Assembly (NCBI GenBank): GCA_007136585.1
Contig: SLGR01000010.1
Location: forward strand, 1 to 8,222
Length of the DNA stretch: 8,222 nt
Direction: 5' to 3'
Source of the DNA: Candidatus Sumerlaeota bacterium
GTDB lineage: Bacteria > CG03 > SLGR01
Part shown: positions 2 to 8,222 of the stretch, piece by piece
How positions within the stretch are numbered: the first letter of the stretch is position 1
Layout: each line of letters starts with the position of its first letter
Notes under the pieces: model-generated
The model's database searches: none
The model's input: the letters and a program-made list of their open reading frames with translations, nothing else
What the model was told of the DNA's origin: nothing
Translations under genes and position numbers: made by a program

Positions 2-901
2 GAGGGGGTGGCGGTTTCAGCTGATTTCCACAAGGTTCCGGATGAGGATTGGGAACACCGTCTAGGGCTTGAGTTTCCTCTTACCGGGAATTTTCTTTTA
101 AGGGCGGGGGTGCAGAGCAGGCCGGCCAGATTCTCGTTCGGATTCGGGGCGCAGGCCGGGATATTTTCCCTGAACTACTCTTACAGGACTCACAGCGAAC
201 TTGAGGCGCAGCATATGTTTTCAATGCAGGGGCGGTTCGGGAGGGACCCGGACGATATCAGGAGGGTATCCCCGGCCGATGAAGTGGAAGAAGAGGAAGA
301 GACCGGGATAGTTGTTAATATAAATACCGCCACATCTGAAGAGCTCACTGCCGTGCCCGGGCTCGGACCGACCACTGCGGGAAGGATAATTGAGTACAGG
401 GAGCAGACAGGTGAGTTCAGGAGCGTAAGGGATCTTATGAGGATATACGGGTTTACCCGTGATATGTACAGCAGGTTCAGGGATTACCTTACGGTTGAAG
501 GGGAGACTACTATCGCCCCCGATATGATGCCGGTCCCCTGGAGGGTTCCTGATATAGGGGATTACTACGAAGAACATTACGCCCCTGATGAGGCGCCTGA
601 GGAAGTTCCTGTGGAAGAACCGGAAGAAAAACCTGAGGAAGTTCCTGCGGAAGAGCCGGAAGAAGAACCGGGAGAGGATCCCGAAGCGGATCCAGAGGAA
701 GAATTGTTTAACTTAAATACAGCCTCGGCTGCGGAACTCAGGGGAGCCGGGATTCCTCCGGCACTGGCTAGGAGTATAATAAGGTACAGGAGTTCGCACG
801 GAGATTTCAACCAGTGGGAGGATCTTATGAGTGTCCCCGGGATGCGCAGGAGCTTTCTTGAGTCGCTTCAGGATGCAGCGGTGCTGGAGCCCTCCCGGTA
901 A
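2..901 (+). CDS. PorV-like outer-membrane barrel C-terminus fused to two ComEA-type helix-hairpin-helix domains (5' partial)
   Basis: The frame is already open at the left edge (codons Glu, Gly, then GTG at 8), so the GTG is probably internal and the gene lacks its 5' part. Residues below count from that GTG. Residues 18-78 alternate in the manner of the last strands of a PorV/UPF0164-type barrel (LNYSYRTHSEL, then FSMQGRFG), closely resembling the end of the barrel encoded at 6001-6873. An acidic tract (92-98) follows. The first ComEA-like HhH unit spans about 102-163 (VVNINTATSEEL, hairpin PGLGP at 117-121). A Pro/Glu-rich repeat linker covers 197-232. A second HhH unit spans 233-295 (LFNLNTASAAEL), with a diverged hairpin (AGIPP). 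If the barrel sits in the outer membrane, the C-terminal tail should lie in the periplasm. HhH domains of this family usually bind DNA without sequence specificity, but they also occur as protein-interaction modules. The next gene starts 19 bp downstream and also carries HhH domains. Architecture is well supported; function is not known. Confidence 0.85.
   Translation, partial: EGVAVSADFHKVPDEDWEHRLGLEFPLTGNFLLRAGVQSRPARFSFGFGAQAGIFSLNYSYRTHSELEAQHMFSMQGRFGRDPDDIRRVSPADEVEEEEETGIVVNINTATSEELTAVPGLGPTTAGRIIEYREQTGEFRSVRDLMRIYGFTRDMYSRFRDYLTVEGETTIAPDMMPVPWRVPDIGDYYEEHYAPDEAPEEVPVEEPEEKPEEVPAEEPEEEPGEDPEADPEEELFNLNTASAAELRGAGIPPALARSIIRYRSSHGDFNQWEDLMSVPGMRRSFLESLQDAAVLEPSR
596..703 (+). repeat. 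Three in-frame 36-bp imperfect repeats encoding a Pro/Glu-rich linker
   Basis: Three consecutive 36-bp units (596-631, 632-667, 668-703) encode the 12-residue units PEEVPVEEPEEK, PEEVPAEEPEEE and PGEDPEADPEEE. The first two copies are nearly identical in DNA; the third is diverged. The linker separates the two HhH domains of the left-edge gene. Extended Pro/Glu-rich segments are common in periplasm-spanning proteins such as TonB, so a stiff spacer is the simplest reading. Tandem copies could expand or contract by slippage without changing the frame. Confidence 0.85.
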
Positions 902-920
902 GGGTCTTTTCTTTCCTGGG

Positions 921-3062
921 ATGAGAAAAACCCCGGTTATACTTTTTTTAACGGTGCTTATCTGCGCATCCTCCGCTTATACAGCGCGGCGTGGTTTTGT
1001 TGATATCAACCGTGCGGATGCGGAGCGTCTGGCGGAGCTTCCCGGGGTCTCTCCGGAGCTGGCTGAGGCTATAGTTGAAACCCGCGAAAAAGTTAATTTT
1101 TTCAGGCGGATAAACGATCTTATGGAAGTTGAAGGGATGACCGGGGAAATATTTGACGGCATATCCCCTATGCTCATAATGACCCCGCCGGGGGCCCTTC
1201 GCGCCGATGAGATAATTGAAGAACTTGAGATAATGGAAGAAGAGGAAGAGGATTACTTCCTGGAGCTTGATGTGGATATATCACGCCTTGAGGCATACAG
1301 GAGCAGTCCCCTTGATCTTAATACGGCCGTTTACTCCCAGCTGCTGGAACTCCCGGAGATAGACCATACGCTTGCCGAAGCTATCCTTTCGCTGAGGCGT
1401 CAGATGAGGGGGTTTGATACCGTTGAGGATATAGTAGAGGTTGTGGGCCCCGGCAGATTTGAGAGGATACGCCCTTTCGTGGCGGTCCTTGACGAGACAG
1501 AACTTGTAAGGCTGCATGGAGATTTCAGGGTCTCCGCCGAGGTTATCCACCCTTATGACGAGTACTACTTTTCTCTTGATAGAAGGTACCAGTACCCGCT
1601 GCAGGTAGAGGCAAGACACAGACTCAGGTACGGGAACAGGCTGGAGCTGGGGCTGCAGATTAGACGTAAGGCCTCTCCGCATTTTCCCCCGAGGTACGAC
1701 GGAGCAAGAAAAATAGATTACGGGAACCTCAGTGAGTATTACCTGGGAACAAGGTACCTTCTGATGCGCAGTATGGGTCCGTTTGATACGGTTGTTCTGG
1801 GAAGTTACAGACTGGATTATTTCGGCCCGGCAACCCGGACGAGGCGTTTAAGAGGTCTCAGGATAGATGAAAGAACTTCTGTTTACGGGGGGTTTTACGG
1901 AGCGGCGGCGGAGACCCGGCCGGGGGATTGGGAGGTGACGGTTTTTCTTTCGGAGAAGGAGCTGCCTTTCAGAAGCGTTAATGAGTACGACGGTTCAGTT
2001 CCCGAACATCAGGGGTCGCTTTACGATACTGCAAACCTTCCTATATACGACCCGTATTATCTTAAGGAATCTATCTACGGGGGGATTCTGAGGCGCGAAC
2101 TTCCTTCGGGGCTGAAACTCAGCGCCGGAGGGTACTTAAAGAGCTACGACAGGGTCCTGGACCATGAGGGCGATTTCAACAGGTTCCGGGGGGACGAGAT
2201 AAGGATACTGGATCTTGAGGCCGAGTATACCTACAGGAATTACCGGGTCATAGCCGACTGGGGGATGTGCCGGTACCATACCTTTGACGCTTTTTATGAC
2301 TCCGACGGGCTTAGAATATGGGAGGAAGGAAGGGAGTGGCGATGGGATACCGGTTACGCTCTCCGGCTTGCTTTTATTTCTCATCACGATATTGCGAATT
2401 TCTGGATTCACTATTGGAGCGTTGATCACGATTATTTTGATTTTCCGGGAGAAGGTCGCCTTGCAACTTATAACGCCAGGAACGAGGTTCGGTATACCCT
2501 TGGGGGCAGGGTAGAGCCCCGGAGGGGGATGCATACCCAGGCGGATCTTATGTACCAGGAGAAGATTAAACCCGTTTACCGTGACACGAGGCTGGACCGT
2601 ATGAGCCTTAGACTGCGCCAGTCCTGGGATGTAACCCAGGAGTTTCTCCTGAGGTATTCCGGAACTTTAAGCCGCGGCAGGGAGTGGCGCACGGTGGATG
2701 CAAGGTACTCCCCGAGGATTTATGATTCCCACAGGCTTGAGATTATTCACAGGCCTTCGGCGCGTGTGCGCCTCAGGGGGGTTTTCAGGAGAGCCAGGGA
2801 AAGGTTCGACGAGACCGCGGAGCTGATTTCCTACGATACCGACAGCGGAAATTACGGCGAGATCAGGTACAGGCCGGTTGACCCGCTTCTGATGCTGGCA
2901 AGGATATATATTAATGACGGGGGTAACGGCCTGGGGTGGCGGATAAGACCCGTCTATACTTTTTCGCGCCACGCAAGGCTCAGGATGGAATTTGAAAAGG
3001 ATCCCAGAGCCGGGGATGATTCAAGGAGCACCTTCTCGGTTCAGTATGATATGTCTTTTTAA
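921..3062 (+). CDS. Exported protein with two ComEA-type HhH domains followed by a large predicted outer-membrane beta-barrel
   Basis: The 713-residue product starts at ATG 921, which gives a clean signal peptide (MRKTPVILFLTVLICASSAYT). An in-frame start at 831 would lie inside the preceding gene and add 30 residues unlike a signal sequence. No good Shine-Dalgarno sequence is visible, so coupling to the gene ending at 901 is likely. HhH unit 1 covers about 27-87 (VDINRADAERLAELPGVSPELA) and HhH unit 2 about 131-189 (LDLNTAVYSQLLELPEI). A strongly acidic linker lies between them (about 96-122, including five Glu in a row at 106-110). From about 195 to the end, short alternating aromatic/polar segments rich in Tyr, Arg and Asp suggest a beta-barrel, and the protein ends in Phe (QYDMSF), as expected for BAM-assembled proteins. 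Proteins with N-terminal HhH and a C-terminal barrel are annotated in Bacteroidota and relatives without an assigned function. The HhH part should face the periplasm. The HhH call is firm; the barrel is inferred from composition and terminus. Confidence 0.85.
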   Translation: MRKTPVILFLTVLICASSAYTARRGFVDINRADAERLAELPGVSPELAEAIVETREKVNFFRRINDLMEVEGMTGEIFDGISPMLIMTPPGALRADEIIEELEIMEEEEEDYFLELDVDISRLEAYRSSPLDLNTAVYSQLLELPEIDHTLAEAILSLRRQMRGFDTVEDIVEVVGPGRFERIRPFVAVLDETELVRLHGDFRVSAEVIHPYDEYYFSLDRRYQYPLQVEARHRLRYGNRLELGLQIRRKASPHFPPRYDGARKIDYGNLSEYYLGTRYLLMRSMGPFDTVVLGSYRLDYFGPATRTRRLRGLRIDERTSVYGGFYGAAAETRPGDWEVTVFLSEKELPFRSVNEYDGSVPEHQGSLYDTANLPIYDPYYLKESIYGGILRRELPSGLKLSAGGYLKSYDRVLDHEGDFNRFRGDEIRILDLEAEYTYRNYRVIADWGMCRYHTFDAFYDSDGLRIWEEGREWRWDTGYALRLAFISHHDIANFWIHYWSVDHDYFDFPGEGRLATYNARNEVRYTLGGRVEPRRGMHTQADLMYQEKIKPVYRDTRLDRMSLRLRQSWDVTQEFLLRYSGTLSRGREWRTVDARYSPRIYDSHRLEIIHRPSARVRLRGVFRRARERFDETAELISYDTDSGNYGEIRYRPVDPLLMLARIYINDGGNGLGWRIRPVYTFSRHARLRMEFEKDPRAGDDSRSTFSVQYDMSF

Positions 3063-3103: not shown

Positions 3104-4360
3104 ATGAAGTTTAAAATATTTTTATCTGTACTTTGGGCATCTCTTCTGGCAGGAGCGGTCCCGGCTTTGCCGTGGAGCTACCCCGGATCGGGCATAGCCG
3201 CCACAGGCGAGCCGGTTCCCGGGGACGGGATCTATCATATGGACGCCCGGACCCTCTCCCTGGGAGGCGCTTCCGCGGCTTCTGCTCACGGCCCGTATGC
3301 TGTATTTTATAACCCCGCCGGTCTAGGACTGGTACCCAGGAGGGCTCTTGCCGTCTCCGCAGGACTGGGGTTTGCCGGGGAAAGGGTCCCGGATGAGCGC
3401 AAGTACTCTTCTTCGCATTTTTTCCGCGCGGGGCCGGTCTCGGTAATTTACCCGGCCGGAAGGTTTTTCCTGGGGGTCGGGTACGCCCGAAGGCGGGATA
3501 TGGGGTATGAGTATGATTACAAGTCCTTTACTCAGGGTAAGGCCGATACCTTCAGGGTGGAATCTTCCGGAGGTATTAACGGGATAACCCTGGCCTGCGG
3601 GCTGGGAGTTCTACGGGACCTTTATGCGGGTGTTACGGTTGATTTACTTACCGGCTCCGCCTCTGGCGAGCGCAGCACGGTTATCTATCGCTCGTCCAGG
3701 GATATTTATGAGGGTGAGCGGGATTTCAGCGGGACCTCATTCTCCCTGGGGGCTGTATATTCGCTGATGGAAGAAAGGCTCATTGCGGCAGCCGTATGGA
3801 ACCCGGGTTATACCTTAAGGGACGAGTGGTCCCTGGAGAGAAGTGAATACCTGTGGGGTGCGAATAACTGGACGGAATCATCTTCATCGGAGCCGGAGGG
3901 GCAAAGGGACCTTAGTATGCCCTCCGGGTTTACGCTCTCGGCCCAGTATAATTTCCCGGGACTTGACCGCACTATGCTTACAGCGGATGTAAGCCGCAGG
4001 AACTGGAGCAGTTTCAGGTACAGGGAGAAGAAAGACACCTCCGACCCGGCCTACGGGGAGAGGATCGATCCTTCCTACAGGGATGTAACCGCCTTCAGGG
4101 CCGGACTGGAACACTATATAGATTTTACGACAGCCTTACGGGCCGGGTTTGCCTACGAACCTTTCTACGGTGATACGGGGGTGGACCTGGTAAAGTTTAC
4201 GGCGGGTGTGGGGGTAGAGCTTTCCAGGAGTTTTTTCCTGGATATAGGTTTGGGGTACGGAATGCGGACATACTACGGGGATAACCCGTTCTCAGATGAC
4301 GAGCAGAGGGTTTCGGAAAATATAATGAGGATTATGTGCAGTACGGAATGGCATTTTTAA
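3104..4360 (+). CDS. FadL/OmpP1-like outer-membrane beta-barrel protein
   Basis: This 418-residue exported protein has a signal peptide at about 1-21 (cleavage near AVPA). An N-terminal block at 46-75 holds the motifs MDARTLSLGGASAAS and FYNPAGLG; this Asp-Ala-Arg...Gly-Gly...Asn-Pro-Ala-Gly-Leu pattern is shared by FadL/OmpP1/TodX and PorV/UPF0164 barrels. Later features favour FadL: a MLTADVSRRNWSSF strand (291-304), and near the C-terminus paired strands of the type found in FadL porins (AFRAGLEHYIDFTTALRAGF). The protein ends in Phe (STEWHF). FadL-family proteins carry hydrophobic compounds across the outer membrane, but no substrate can be read here, and a role as a PorV-type secretion partner is possible. 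It lies 41 bp after the HhH-barrel gene and 39 bp before the subtilase gene, consistent with one transcript. The start is set by the strong Shine-Dalgarno sequence. Confidence 0.8.
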   Translation: MKFKIFLSVLWASLLAGAVPALPWSYPGSGIAATGEPVPGDGIYHMDARTLSLGGASAASAHGPYAVFYNPAGLGLVPRRALAVSAGLGFAGERVPDERKYSSSHFFRAGPVSVIYPAGRFFLGVGYARRRDMGYEYDYKSFTQGKADTFRVESSGGINGITLACGLGVLRDLYAGVTVDLLTGSASGERSTVIYRSSRDIYEGERDFSGTSFSLGAVYSLMEERLIAAAVWNPGYTLRDEWSLERSEYLWGANNWTESSSSEPEGQRDLSMPSGFTLSAQYNFPGLDRTMLTADVSRRNWSSFRYREKKDTSDPAYGERIDPSYRDVTAFRAGLEHYIDFTTALRAGFAYEPFYGDTGVDLVKFTAGVGVELSRSFFLDIGLGYGMRTYYGDNPFSDDEQRVSENIMRIMCSTEWHF

Positions 4361-4399: not shown

Positions 4400-6004
4400 G
4401 TGAGAAAAAGCTTTAAAATTATCTGGGTGCTTATACTTCTTGCGCTTCCGGGGGAGCTCCGGGGCGGGTATGAGATCCTTGAGATAGGCGGGGTTTCAGC
4501 AAGAGCCGTATCCGGGGAGGTAATACTGAAATTCAGATCCGGGGTCCCGGCCGGGGTTAAAGCTGAAGCCCTCTCCGGGGCCGGAGCCCGGGTTATATCA
4601 AGGCAGTCGGTACTCGGAATAAAACTTGTGGTTTCTGATACCAAGGGAACAGAGTCTCTCGTGAGGTATTTCAGGTCGCTTGACGAGGTTGAGTACGCCG
4701 TCCCTAATTACGTGGTTACAGCCTCCTCGTACAGGCTCCCAGGGGATTTTTCCAGCCTGGCGGAACTCCGGCAGAGACAGTGGGGTCTTGAGCGGATCAA
4801 CGCCCCCGGGGCCTGGGATATAACAACGGGCGAGGATGTCCTTGTGGCGGTGCTTGATACCGGTATAGATATAGACCACGAGAAACTCAGGAATAATATA
4901 TGGGTCAACCCCGACCCGCTGAGCCCCCTTGATTTCGGCGACGGGTATATAGTGGTTAACGATACGCACGGATGGAATTTCATAGATAACACCAATAACA
5001 TAAGCACTTCCGGAGTCCACGGTACCCACGTGGCCGGGATAATAGCCGGGGAAGAGGTTTCCACAAGCTCCCCGGCCTCGGGGTTTGTGGGAGTGAACTG
5101 GAACGCAGATATAATGGCGGTGGAGGTGCTCTGCTCATCAACCGGAAGCGGAGACTCCTGGGCCCTGGTCTCAGGTATACTTTACGCTCTTCGCCGCGGG
5201 GCCGATATAATTAATATGAGTCTGGGGTACGCTCCGGGACATGAGAGGATATCTCCGGTGGAGGAAGCCTGCGAGTACGCCTACAGCAGGGGGGTTCTCC
5301 TCGTCTCTTCATCGGGGAACATAGACGGAAGTCCCGGGTACGGGGGAGGTATAGGTCAGCCGGCTTCCTACAGGAGTGTTATAGCTGTAGGCGCGACCGA
5401 CAGCGAGGACCGTAAGGCGGTTTTCTCGAATTACGGGGAAGAGCTGGAGATATCCGCTCCCGGGGTTGATATTTACTCTACTCTTCCCGGGGGTACCTAC
5501 GGGGAAAAATCCGGGACCAGTATGGCCGCCCCTTTTGTTTCGGGAATAGCCTCAATGGTAATATCTGTCTGGAGGGATAGGGGGCTGGACTGGACCCCGG
5601 GACAGGCACGCCAGGTTCTGACCGCTTCCGCTGAAACTCCGGCCGGGGGGAAAGACCGTATGCTGGGGTATGGGTACTCTGATCTATTATCCGCGGTAAG
5701 AACAGCCTCCGAGTCCCAGGGAAAGGTTGAAGAAAAGAGGTTGCTTGTATATCCGAACCCGTTCTACCCTGAGGAGGGGCAGGAGGTCAAGATAGTCCTC
5801 CCGGCCCGTAAGGAGGCCGGGGCAAGGCGGCTCAGAATTTACACCCTTGACGGGGTCAGCGTTCTTGAGAGGGATGTGCGGAATCTTCCAGTAACCTGGG
5901 ACGGAAGAAACTCCGAAGGAAGAAGGTGCGCAAGCGGTCTCTATTTTTTCTATCTTGAGACCGAAGACGGTTCGGAGACCGGAAGGATAACCCTCATAAG
6001 ATGA
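4400..6004 (+). CDS. Secreted pre-pro-subtilase (peptidase S8) with C-terminal FlgD-like/T9SS type A-like sorting domain
   Basis: This 534-residue protein starts at GTG 4400, giving MRKSFK plus a hydrophobic core (signal peptide about 1-22). AAAAGGG at 4384-4390 may serve as a ribosome site. Residues 37-108 resemble a fervidolysin/I9-type prodomain (GEVILKFRSG, then VEYAVPNYV), which acts as intramolecular chaperone and inhibitor in this family. The catalytic domain spans about 126-437: Asp153 in VLDTGID, His210 in HGTHVAG, oxyanion Asn307 in SSSGN and nucleophile Ser374 in SGTSMAAPF. All key residues are present, so it is probably an active serine endopeptidase. The C-terminal 448-534 (LLVYPNPF, then VTWDGRN, ASGLYFFYLE, ending GRITLIR) matches the FlgD Ig-like/type IX secretion type A CTD pattern. 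The domain suggests sorting to, or anchoring at, the cell surface. Its stop codon overlaps the start of a PorV-like barrel gene. The S8 call is very secure; T9SS export is inference. Confidence 0.95.
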   Translation: MRKSFKIIWVLILLALPGELRGGYEILEIGGVSARAVSGEVILKFRSGVPAGVKAEALSGAGARVISRQSVLGIKLVVSDTKGTESLVRYFRSLDEVEYAVPNYVVTASSYRLPGDFSSLAELRQRQWGLERINAPGAWDITTGEDVLVAVLDTGIDIDHEKLRNNIWVNPDPLSPLDFGDGYIVVNDTHGWNFIDNTNNISTSGVHGTHVAGIIAGEEVSTSSPASGFVGVNWNADIMAVEVLCSSTGSGDSWALVSGILYALRRGADIINMSLGYAPGHERISPVEEACEYAYSRGVLLVSSSGNIDGSPGYGGGIGQPASYRSVIAVGATDSEDRKAVFSNYGEELEISAPGVDIYSTLPGGTYGEKSGTSMAAPFVSGIASMVISVWRDRGLDWTPGQARQVLTASAETPAGGKDRMLGYGYSDLLSAVRTASESQGKVEEKRLLVYPNPFYPEEGQEVKIVLPARKEAGARRLRIYTLDGVSVLERDVRNLPVTWDGRNSEGRRCASGLYFFYLETEDGSETGRITLIR

Positions 6005-6873
6005 ACAGGTTGAAGACAGCCCTTGCGGCCGGACTTATATACGCTTTTGCGGCCGGTTCCTTATCCGCGGCCGGAAGAAGCGGCGGCAGGATACTGGAGG
6101 TAACGACCCTACCAGGGGTTGCTGCCCTTGGGGAGGCCTACTCCGCCCGTTCAGGGCGGGCGGCCTCGGTATCGATTAACCCTGCCGCCCTTGCCCGCAT
6201 CCGGTTTACGGAAGCGGTTTTCGCTCATACGGTATATTATGCTGATACTTCCCTTACATCAGTCTCGGCTGCCTGGAAATGGGGGAGCGCGGGGCTGGGC
6301 GGAGAGTGGAAGCAGTTTTATTCCCGCGATATTTACAGGGACGAATGGGGGGGAGGAAGGGAGAGTTTCGTAAACAGGTTTACCGGGATAACACTGGGAG
6401 GAGGCTTTCCTGTTTACGGGAGAGTATCCTGCGGGGTTTCAGTGAGTACTGTTAAGGAGACTCTTTATGAGTATTCCGATACGGCTCTCTCCCTGGGAGC
6501 GGGGGTTTATATTACGGGTTTCAGGGGGGACTCGTTTGCCTTTACCGTGAGGAACTTCGGGACCTCACTTGAACATAAGGATAGGGCCGGGTCACAGAAC
6601 ACCCTTGCCTCAGCGGCGGGGGCTCACAGGATGGGAAATTATATTCTATCCTGGGAACTTCTGAGATCACGCGAGCTTGACCTGGGGTGGAGAGCCGGGC
6701 TTGAGGGTGATCTCTCCGGTTTGATACTCAGGGGCGGCCTGAGATATGAGCACGGAGCCGATTTCTCACTGGGGGTGGGGGTGCCTTACGGCAGGTGGAA
6801 CTTTGATTATGCTTATTCGCCTCACCGGGACCTTGAGGCGGCTCACCGGATCTCTGTCGGGGCTTTATTCTAA
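6001..6873 (+). CDS. Small PorV/UPF0164-like outer-membrane barrel protein
   Basis: The start ATG overlaps the subtilase stop codon (ATGA, 6001-6004), so translational coupling is likely; GGAAGG at 5981-5986 is somewhat far for a ribosome site. The 290-residue product has a signal peptide at about 1-23 (LSAA cleavage region). The motif at 31-66 (LEVTTLPGVAALGEAYSA, then INPAALARI) is a version of the PorV/PorQ/UPF0164 N-terminal signature, here with NPAAL instead of the usual NPAGL. The remainder is alternating beta-strand sequence ending in Phe (ISVGALF). The terminal strands (FDYAYSPHRDLEAAHRISVG) resemble the barrel end of the left-edge HhH fusion. It is shorter than most PorV-type proteins. 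In type IX systems PorV collects CTD-bearing cargo at the outer membrane, so overlap with a CTD-bearing protease suggests a cargo-partner pair. A generic barrel role remains possible. No substrate can be assigned. Confidence 0.8.
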   Translation: MNRLKTALAAGLIYAFAAGSLSAAGRSGGRILEVTTLPGVAALGEAYSARSGRAASVSINPAALARIRFTEAVFAHTVYYADTSLTSVSAAWKWGSAGLGGEWKQFYSRDIYRDEWGGGRESFVNRFTGITLGGGFPVYGRVSCGVSVSTVKETLYEYSDTALSLGAGVYITGFRGDSFAFTVRNFGTSLEHKDRAGSQNTLASAAGAHRMGNYILSWELLRSRELDLGWRAGLEGDLSGLILRGGLRYEHGADFSLGVGVPYGRWNFDYAYSPHRDLEAAHRISVGALF

Positions 6874-6961: not shown

Positions 6962-8222
6962 ATGAAACGGTATTTAATATATTTTCTGATAACGGTAATA
7001 TACTCCGGGCCTATTTTCGCCAGGGATATAACCGTATATACGGTCCGGGGGCGGGAGACACGGGCGGTCCGGGGGGAGCTGATAGTAAGGTTCAGGAGCG
7101 GCCTCTCAGATGCTGAAAGAGAGGCGATAATTGAGAGCCGCGGCGCCGTAAAGGTCAGGGACTTGCGGACCCCCGGTTCGGTCAAAGTGGAGGTTCCGGG
7201 GGATGCCCTTGAAAGTATTATGGCGGCTCTTGAAGCTGACCCCGGGGTTAAGTACGCAGAGCCCAATATGATATTCACTTCTCAGAAACTTCCCGGTATT
7301 TACGGGGACATCCAGGATCTTGAGAGCGCCCAGTGGGGTCTTGCCAGGGTCCAGGCCCCTTCGGCCTGGGAGGTGGATACAGGCTCCGGGAAAGCTGTCA
7401 TAGCCGTTATAGACAGCGGCATAGATCTCACTCATCCGGATTTAAGTGAGAATATATGGAGGAACCCGTTTGAGGAGGCGGACGGGACAGATACCGCAGG
7501 AAACGGGTATGAAGACGATATATACGGATGGAACTTTGTTGATGATAACAACAACCCCAACCCCCCGAATACTAATGAGAACCACGGCACCCACGTTGCA
7601 GGTATTGCCGCAGCCTCCGGAAGCCTCGGGGCTGTGGGTATGAGCTGGGGAAACCTTATAATGCCGCTTCGGGCCCTTGCGGGTAGTGAGGGAACGACGG
7701 TGGATATAGTAGAGGCCATAGAATATGCCGCTGATAACGGCGCTGATGTGATCAATATGAGCCTGGGCGGAGATAAAAACCTGCTCTTAAGGGACGCTGT
7801 CAATTATGCTTACGGGAAAGGTGTTCTTATTGTTGCCGCCAGCGGCAACACGCATCCTCTGCCCATAGCGTATCCTGCGGCCTATGAGAACGTCATAGCC
7901 GTAGGAGCTTCAGATAAAGATGATCTCAGGGCCCCTTTTTCGTGTTATATTCCCCCTACTCACGGGTACAGGATTGACCTTGTCGCTCCCGGGGTTGATA
8001 TTTATTCAACGCTTCCCGGAGATACCTACGGGGAGAAACCCGGGACCAGTATGGCGGCTCCCTTTGTCGCGGGTCTTGCCTCTCTTATTATATCCTACAA
8101 AAACGACAGGGGTATACCGTGGAGTAATGATGAGGTTTGGCGTATACTCATTCAGAACGCGGACGGGCTTAACGGAGGCGGGTACCCCGTCCGGGATGAC
8201 GAGACCGGGTACGGAAGGATAA
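6962..8222 (+). CDS. Secreted pre-pro-subtilase (peptidase S8), paralog of the upstream protease (3' partial)
   Basis: The reading frame from ATG 6962 stays open to the window end (420 codons visible), so the gene is cut at its 3' side. No Shine-Dalgarno sequence precedes the ATG; the leader is A/T-rich (AAAATAAATTT). MKRYLIYFLITVIYSGPIFA is a signal peptide. A fervidolysin/I9-type prodomain spans about 35-105 (GELIVRFRSG, then VKYAEPNMIF). The catalytic domain begins near 124: Asp151 in VIDSGID, His211 in HGTHVAG, oxyanion Asn296 in AASGN and nucleophile Ser363 in PGTSMAAPF, so all catalytic residues are present. A Gly/Asp/Asn-rich loop at about 171-198 (NGYEDDIYGWNFVDD) is typical of calcium-binding loops in related subtilases. 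It aligns with the 4400-6004 protease through prodomain and catalytic domain. Whether it also carries a sorting domain lies beyond the window. It probably has its own promoter, given the 88-bp AT-rich gap. Confidence 0.93.
   Translation, partial: MKRYLIYFLITVIYSGPIFARDITVYTVRGRETRAVRGELIVRFRSGLSDAEREAIIESRGAVKVRDLRTPGSVKVEVPGDALESIMAALEADPGVKYAEPNMIFTSQKLPGIYGDIQDLESAQWGLARVQAPSAWEVDTGSGKAVIAVIDSGIDLTHPDLSENIWRNPFEEADGTDTAGNGYEDDIYGWNFVDDNNNPNPPNTNENHGTHVAGIAAASGSLGAVGMSWGNLIMPLRALAGSEGTTVDIVEAIEYAADNGADVINMSLGGDKNLLLRDAVNYAYGKGVLIVAASGNTHPLPIAYPAAYENVIAVGASDKDDLRAPFSCYIPPTHGYRIDLVAPGVDIYSTLPGDTYGEKPGTSMAAPFVAGLASLIISYKNDRGIPWSNDEVWRILIQNADGLNGGGYPVRDDETGYGRI

Follow-up and report, generated by a model that had tools for sequence, protein, structure and literature searches.

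Adjacent genes joining ComEA-like helix-hairpin-helix units to outer-membrane barrels beside nucleic-acid genes in a Candidatus Sumerlaeota bacterium

We analysed a window of 8,222 nucleotides, the whole of contig C158 (SLGR01000010.1) in the 1.88 Mb draft genome (G000) of a Candidatus Sumerlaeota bacterium. The window opens with two adjacent plus-strand genes that combine helix-hairpin-helix (HhH) units with outer-membrane beta-barrels. The original prediction placed four HhH units in opposite orders, after a PorV-like barrel in gene 1 (2-901) and before a large barrel in gene 2 (921-3062), and this arrangement was borne out by HHH_3 matches, by relatives and by structure models. All four matches exceed the Pfam cut-off, and they are the sole HHH_3 matches in the assembly.

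The 5' part of gene 1 lies off the contig, and the window holds the last strands of its PorV-like barrel (2-241) and both of its HhH units. The barrel is recognized from a weak PorV_fam match (21.3 bits; cut-off 90) covering residues 17-76 of the fragment, from an alignment with 10 longer relatives in which a PorV-like barrel precedes the HhH units, and from an AlphaFold2 model of a relative. This model, of moderate confidence, has a FadL/PorV-type barrel of 14 strands and, after it, two helical HhH units; its structural matches were FadL and the type IX secretion system (T9SS) protein PorV (8gl6_F). The first HhH unit (311-493; HHH_3 72.3 bits) is of ComEA type, with the canonical hairpin PGLGPTTAGRI. 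The second (698-874; 56.0 bits) has the hairpin GIP and is mostly basic in relatives. Between them the translation shows an acidic, proline-rich linker (506-697) whose length varies among relatives, and in one family of the phylum the alignment shows a gene 1 with a single HhH, unit 2 being replaced by a repeat-like tail. Gene 1 scored 98.3 bits against the ComEA-type model TIGR00426, over its cut-off of 53.1, and 107.4 bits against the whole-protein ComEA model TIGR01259, below its cut-off of 152.35. A PsbU model also matched gene 1 just over its cut-off.

Gene 2 starts at the ATG at 921, position 831 being only the start of the longest open reading frame, and its hydrophobic, signal-peptide-like N-terminus (921-983) corresponds to a homologous start in relatives. 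Its first HhH unit (999-1169; HHH_3 59.5 bits) is degenerate, with the hairpin PGVS and a net charge of about -7; its second (1308-1481; 40.0 bits) has the hairpin PEID, without GhG. The remainder (1512-3059) is predicted to form a large outer-membrane beta-barrel: in an AlphaFold2 model (m25ca31f6eeae, mean pLDDT 72), also of moderate confidence, two HhH units precede about 24 strands, and the proposed barrels appear in the models of gene 2 and of the gene 1 relative. The closest structural matches to the gene 2 barrel were FimD/PapC ushers and TonB-dependent receptors, and no Pfam or NCBIfam model matched this part of the protein. We rejected membership of the usher family because there was no usher Pfam match and the likeness lies in barrel shape only (Z about 17, 11-14% identity). 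Gene 2 scored 58.3 bits against TIGR00426, over the cut-off, and 55.3 bits against TIGR01259, below it. One family of the phylum has a gene 2 with a single HhH, and in a relative from genome G002 (L038:2639-4726) an in-frame TAA stands just before the C-terminal strands, reflecting a recent truncation or an assembly error. Barrel topology suggests that the HhH units of both proteins face the periplasm.

In HhH motifs the backbone of the GhG hairpin contacts the DNA phosphate. We surveyed hairpins with a sequence-pattern test that included 85 barrel-borne HhH units of the gene 2 type, drawn from 13 proteins of the phylum and otherwise from elsewhere. The GhG hairpin was kept in 17 of 21 free ComEA-like HhH units and in 13 of 15 first HhH units of PorV-like proteins, but in only 1 of the 85 barrel-borne units (Fisher p about 5e-15). 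Barrel-borne units were mostly acidic and PorV-borne units mostly neutral to basic. First PorV-borne units also aligned better with free ComEA-like units (mean score 107) than with barrel-borne units (70 and 67). Given this pattern of hairpin, charge and alignment score, the first HhH of gene 1 is the one that resembles ComEA and is predicted to be DNA-competent; the gene 2 units are probably structural, gating or docking modules. The proposal that both barrels carry DNA-holding ComEA units is therefore not supported in that form. The first HhH of gene 1 keeps GhG, and such units have the hairpin and basic residues that DNA contact would need; the HhH units of the large barrel are mostly acidic and lack the hairpin in nearly every relative, and for gene 2 we rejected DNA holding on the strength of the survey.

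We examined 16 genomes of the phylum for the pair, ComEC, secretin and DprA. Gene 2 has relatives in 14 of them; the gene immediately upstream was PorV-like at all 13 assessable loci, and the one immediately downstream was FadL-like at all 12 where it could be assessed. A gene 2 scan of the named genome contigs gave three loci only, and a profile search with gene 2 found HhH-barrels in many genomes beyond the phylum. We read 43 loci in other phyla, some of them close pairs (L035/L036, L135/L136, L129/L142 and L130/L138) whose collapse shrinks the adjacency counts and leaves their direction; a PorV-like gene lay directly upstream in 32 and a FadL-like gene directly downstream in 24, as called with hidden Markov models built from the window's own phylum, of which the PorV and FadL models cross-match weakly. 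The adjacency of PorV-like and HhH-barrel genes is far beyond chance. One of the close pairs, L035 (labelled Fibrobacter) and L036 (labelled Gemmatimonas), encodes almost identical operons whose proteins are equally long, and one of these labels is probably wrong.

The genes flanking this triplet in other phyla have a common theme. The gene before PorV encoded an OB-fold in 15 of 26 cases, an LTD domain in 11, DUF5689 in 7 and a FlgD_ig/CTD-type tail in 12; the gene after the FadL-like gene encoded a 5'-nucleotidase in 10 of 15 cases and a PLD protein in 2. Among 40 control genes from the same loci, OB-fold, LTD, DUF5689, 5'-nucleotidase and PLD were all missing from the 25 commonest families listed. 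In G223, from another phylum, genes for PLD, SpoVG, LTD, PorV, HhH-barrel, FadL-like protein and ComEC are lined up, and one hydrolase gene separates the FadL-like gene from that for ComEC.

In the window itself, four further plus-strand genes follow the pair. The third member of the triplet (3104-4360) encodes a FadL/BamG-like outer-membrane protein over the cut-off for Toluene_X; it shares a FadL-like barrel with BamG of the Bacteroidota BAM complex, but its 91 bits against the BamG model are far below the NCBIfam equivalog cut-off of 250, and we rejected BamG membership. It is followed by an exported S8 peptidase (4400-6004; Peptidase_S8) with a type IX-like C-terminal tail weakly matching CHU_C and Por_Secre_tail, by a PorV/PorQ-like barrel, the putative partner of this peptidase (6001-6873; PorV_fam 53.7 bits, below cut-off), and by a second S8 peptidase (6962-8222) that runs on into contig C214. 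The end of the window and the start of C214 share an exact overlap of 121 bases, as do the ends of C214 and C59. After the second peptidase, these contigs encode a PorV-like protein, a long ComEC (981 amino acids), a PD-(D/E)XK nuclease, a ComEC-like metallo-beta-lactamase, two small proteins and a canonical ComEC. The genome thus has, in one row on one strand, the pair, FadL-like, S8, PorV, S8, PorV and long ComEC genes and, further on, the canonical ComEC gene; the search for a nearby comEC that the original prediction called for leads into two of them. The pair and the long ComEC also share a contig in G003 and G007, and genomes across the phylum have a second, longer type of ComEC in addition to the canonical one. 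At L074:4519-5610 with L075:1-861, and at L054:1049-2896, the PD-(D/E)XK (RecB/Cas4-like) gene overlaps the end of the long comEC by 4 bases and is followed by the ComEC-like metallo-beta-lactamase gene.

In relatives, the stretch before the pair holds genes for a triple-SpoVG protein and for a PLD nuclease with a type IX-like tail, both exported, then for a PorV-like barrel, a ComEC-like metallo-beta-lactamase and an LTD protein. Contig C153 of the window's genome carries this set as far as the metallo-beta-lactamase gene that precedes LTD in relatives, inside which it ends. The first 121 bases of the window match only the window itself, and no contig overlap joins this side; synteny suggests that C153 leads into the window. 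The ComEC/nuclease cluster in the phylum, together with the OB-fold, LTD and DUF5689 proteins and 5'-nucleotidases that flank the triplet elsewhere, shows that the genomic context of the pair concerns nucleic acid. SpoVG is known from other settings as a regulator that binds nucleic acid in the cytosol. Exported SpoVG proteins with signal peptides are encoded at L155:4658-5854, L040:16515-17675, L042:1148-2290 and L115:4167-4838; those of the window's phylum have three SpoVG domains, and in two phyla the gene lies near a PLD-family gene.

A secretin and DprA were found in 16 of 16 genomes of the phylum, and G000 has ComEC as well. A free ComEA was not found in G000, G002, G005 or G007, since the HhH units of the pair are the sole HHH_3 matches there; another family of the phylum has both a free ComEA and the pair. 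In G001, which is 97% complete, a deletion takes out the two HhH units of gene 1 and, from gene 2, the first HhH and the signal peptide; this genome alone of the 16 had no match to the Competence domain (PF03772).

The surroundings also point to type IX secretion. Of 38 genomes that have the HhH-barrel, 36 contained a SprA-like sequence, against 9 of 40 that lack the barrel (Fisher p about 2e-11, a value inflated by related genomes); in G000 the SprA blocks fall in a frame of 1756 amino acids scoring 92 bits, under the 200-bit cut-off. Genes for peptidases with a type IX-like tail each directly precede their own PorV-like gene (window 4400-6873; window 6962-8222 with L074:1-1361; L042:11839-16785), like cassettes of cargo and anchor. 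Because tailed cargos are each encoded before a PorV-like gene of their own, the LTD/OB-fold protein encoded upstream of the pair is probably a type IX cargo that its PorV-like partner holds; the module may be part of the T9SS.

We compared the pair with known systems. ComEA is membrane-anchored or free in the periplasm, whereas here the unit with the canonical hairpin is fused behind an outer-membrane barrel; both genes exceed the TIGR00426 cut-off, but neither reaches that of TIGR01259, and the gene 2 units lack the hairpin. With T9SS PorV and PorQ the locus shares the predicted barrel type, the cargo-then-PorV gene order, the match of the gene 1 relative's model to the PorV of 8gl6 and a putative SprA relative in the genome; it differs in the HhH tail of gene 1, in scores below the family cut-offs and in a SprA relative that is short and below cut-off. 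In Riemerella anatipestifer, natural transformation proceeds in the absence of pilus homologs and needs each of three proteins, namely a DUF5689 protein, the outer-membrane barrel encoded in its operon and an HhH protein (PMC8459023). Compared by description only, that machinery likewise places a DUF5689-type surface protein, a barrel of the outer membrane and HhH in a single ComEC-containing pathway, but its HhH and barrel are separate proteins and its barrel has a carboxypeptidase-regulatory domain. The extracellular nuclease ExeM includes LTD and OB-fold parts (PMC6085458). The protein whose gene precedes that of PorV shares these modules with ExeM-type nucleases (LTD, OB-fold and EEP), although no EEP nuclease domain appeared in the tally of pre-PorV neighbours. 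We found no paper in the open-licence literature that describes an outer-membrane barrel, of PorV type or another, with a fused HhH.

Our preferred interpretation, to which we give a probability of about one half, is that the pair may form the outer-membrane part of a module for capturing or handling extracellular DNA in T9SS-bearing bacteria, feeding ComEC in this lineage. It is the simplest reading that takes in all the parts. In its favour are the one-strand gene row that leads to ComEC in G000, the similar arrangement near ComEC in G003, G007 and G223, the negative search for a free ComEA in four genomes, the GhG hairpin and ComEA likeness of the first PorV-borne HhH, the neighbouring domains in other phyla and the joint loss in G001; from outside come the Riemerella machinery, a parallel backed by experiment, and the make-up of ExeM. 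In such a scheme, the gene just before the pair would supply an exported surface protein, with LTD/OB-fold domains and a type IX-like tail, that its PorV-like partner would keep at the cell surface, and the cluster's own nucleases (PLD and the ComEC-like metallo-beta-lactamase) would trim the DNA bound there. DNA, or large fragments of it, would then pass the outer membrane either close to the usher-sized gene 2 barrel or through this barrel, whose two degenerate, acidic HhH units might act as a periplasmic gate or docking surface and not as a DNA grip. The ComEA-type HhH on the PorV-like barrel would seize DNA in the periplasm, replacing the free ComEA that was not found in this lineage, and the long ComEC encoded downstream would pass one strand inward. 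The imported DNA could serve as food or as genes. A bolder version, which we put forward only tentatively, makes the HhH-barrel itself a DNA channel of the outer membrane, by which bacteria with type IX secretion would replace or bypass the secretin route: an OB-fold/LTD/DUF5689 protein would bind DNA outside, the pore of about 24 strands would be gated by its own HhH units, and those of the PorV-like partner would catch the DNA before ComEC.

Several observations weigh against a DNA-handling role. The GhG hairpin is nearly never kept in barrel-borne HhH units, the structure models have only moderate confidence, and the upstream LTD gene falls in the assembly gap of the window's genome. Among other phyla, ComEC beside the module was seen only in G223. 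ComEC does not need the pair, because G006 has a long ComEC and G004 a ComEC without it, and we rejected strict dependence on these grounds. An ordinary pilus route for DNA may also exist, since secretins are present in all 16 genomes of the phylum. The co-occurrence with SprA points to secretion as well.

That last point leads to the main rival explanation, which is possible though less probable than DNA handling: the pair would be a type IX secretion accessory with no DNA role, in which the PorV-like protein serves as anchor or shuttle for the tailed cargo of the preceding gene, the HhH-barrel is an outer-membrane partner in export or assembly and the HhH units are protein-protein docking modules. 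The SprA counts agree with this, as do the FlgD_ig/CTD tails that end the upstream gene in 12 of 26 loci, the PorV-like gene that follows each tailed S8 peptidase in the window region, the degenerate and acidic barrel HhH units, the resemblance of gene 3 to BamG and the usher-like shape of the barrel. However, it leaves unexplained why ComEC, PD-(D/E)XK, PLD, exported SpoVG repeats and 5'-nucleotidases surround the module and why a PorV-like protein bears a ComEA-type HhH with a GhG hairpin, and the association with SprA may merely reflect shared genome ancestry.

The module could instead serve feeding on extracellular nucleic acid, with no long DNA being imported: nucleases and 5'-nucleotidases at the surface would yield nucleosides that enter through the FadL-like barrel, and the HhH units would hold DNA fragments for digestion. 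Known bacteria that degrade extracellular DNA use extracellular nucleases and nucleotidases (PMC8289736), and the downstream 5'-nucleotidases, PLD and LTD/OB-fold proteins fit such a diet. We consider it unlikely: the cluster of the window's lineage has two ComEC genes, no 5'-nucleotidase was found in that cluster, and a barrel of about 24 strands exceeds the size needed for nucleosides. HhH domains are also known in non-DNA roles, for example in PsbU of photosystem II, and the units here could be structural leftovers of that kind, with an unrelated envelope function for the pair and a chance proximity of ComEC. The PsbU match of gene 1, the degeneracy of the barrel HhH units and the absence of ComEC linkage in most phyla speak for this last explanation, but the domains of the neighbouring genes are consistently tied to nucleic acid across phyla, and we regard it as the least likely of all.

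It is an open question how naturally competent bacteria that lack type IV pili bring DNA across their outer membrane; Riemerella proves that a route exists and leaves its channel to be found. The HhH-barrel family, conserved beside nucleic-acid genes across many phyla and with a barrel outside Pfam and NCBIfam, is a concrete candidate for such a channel and could be deleted in cultivated relatives. If it is instead a secretion component, it would add an unrecognized partner to PorV-type systems. In G003, contigs C25, C42 and C45 carry open frames of 13,409, 9,931 and 20,244 codons with HHH_3 matches, which may encode giant proteins.

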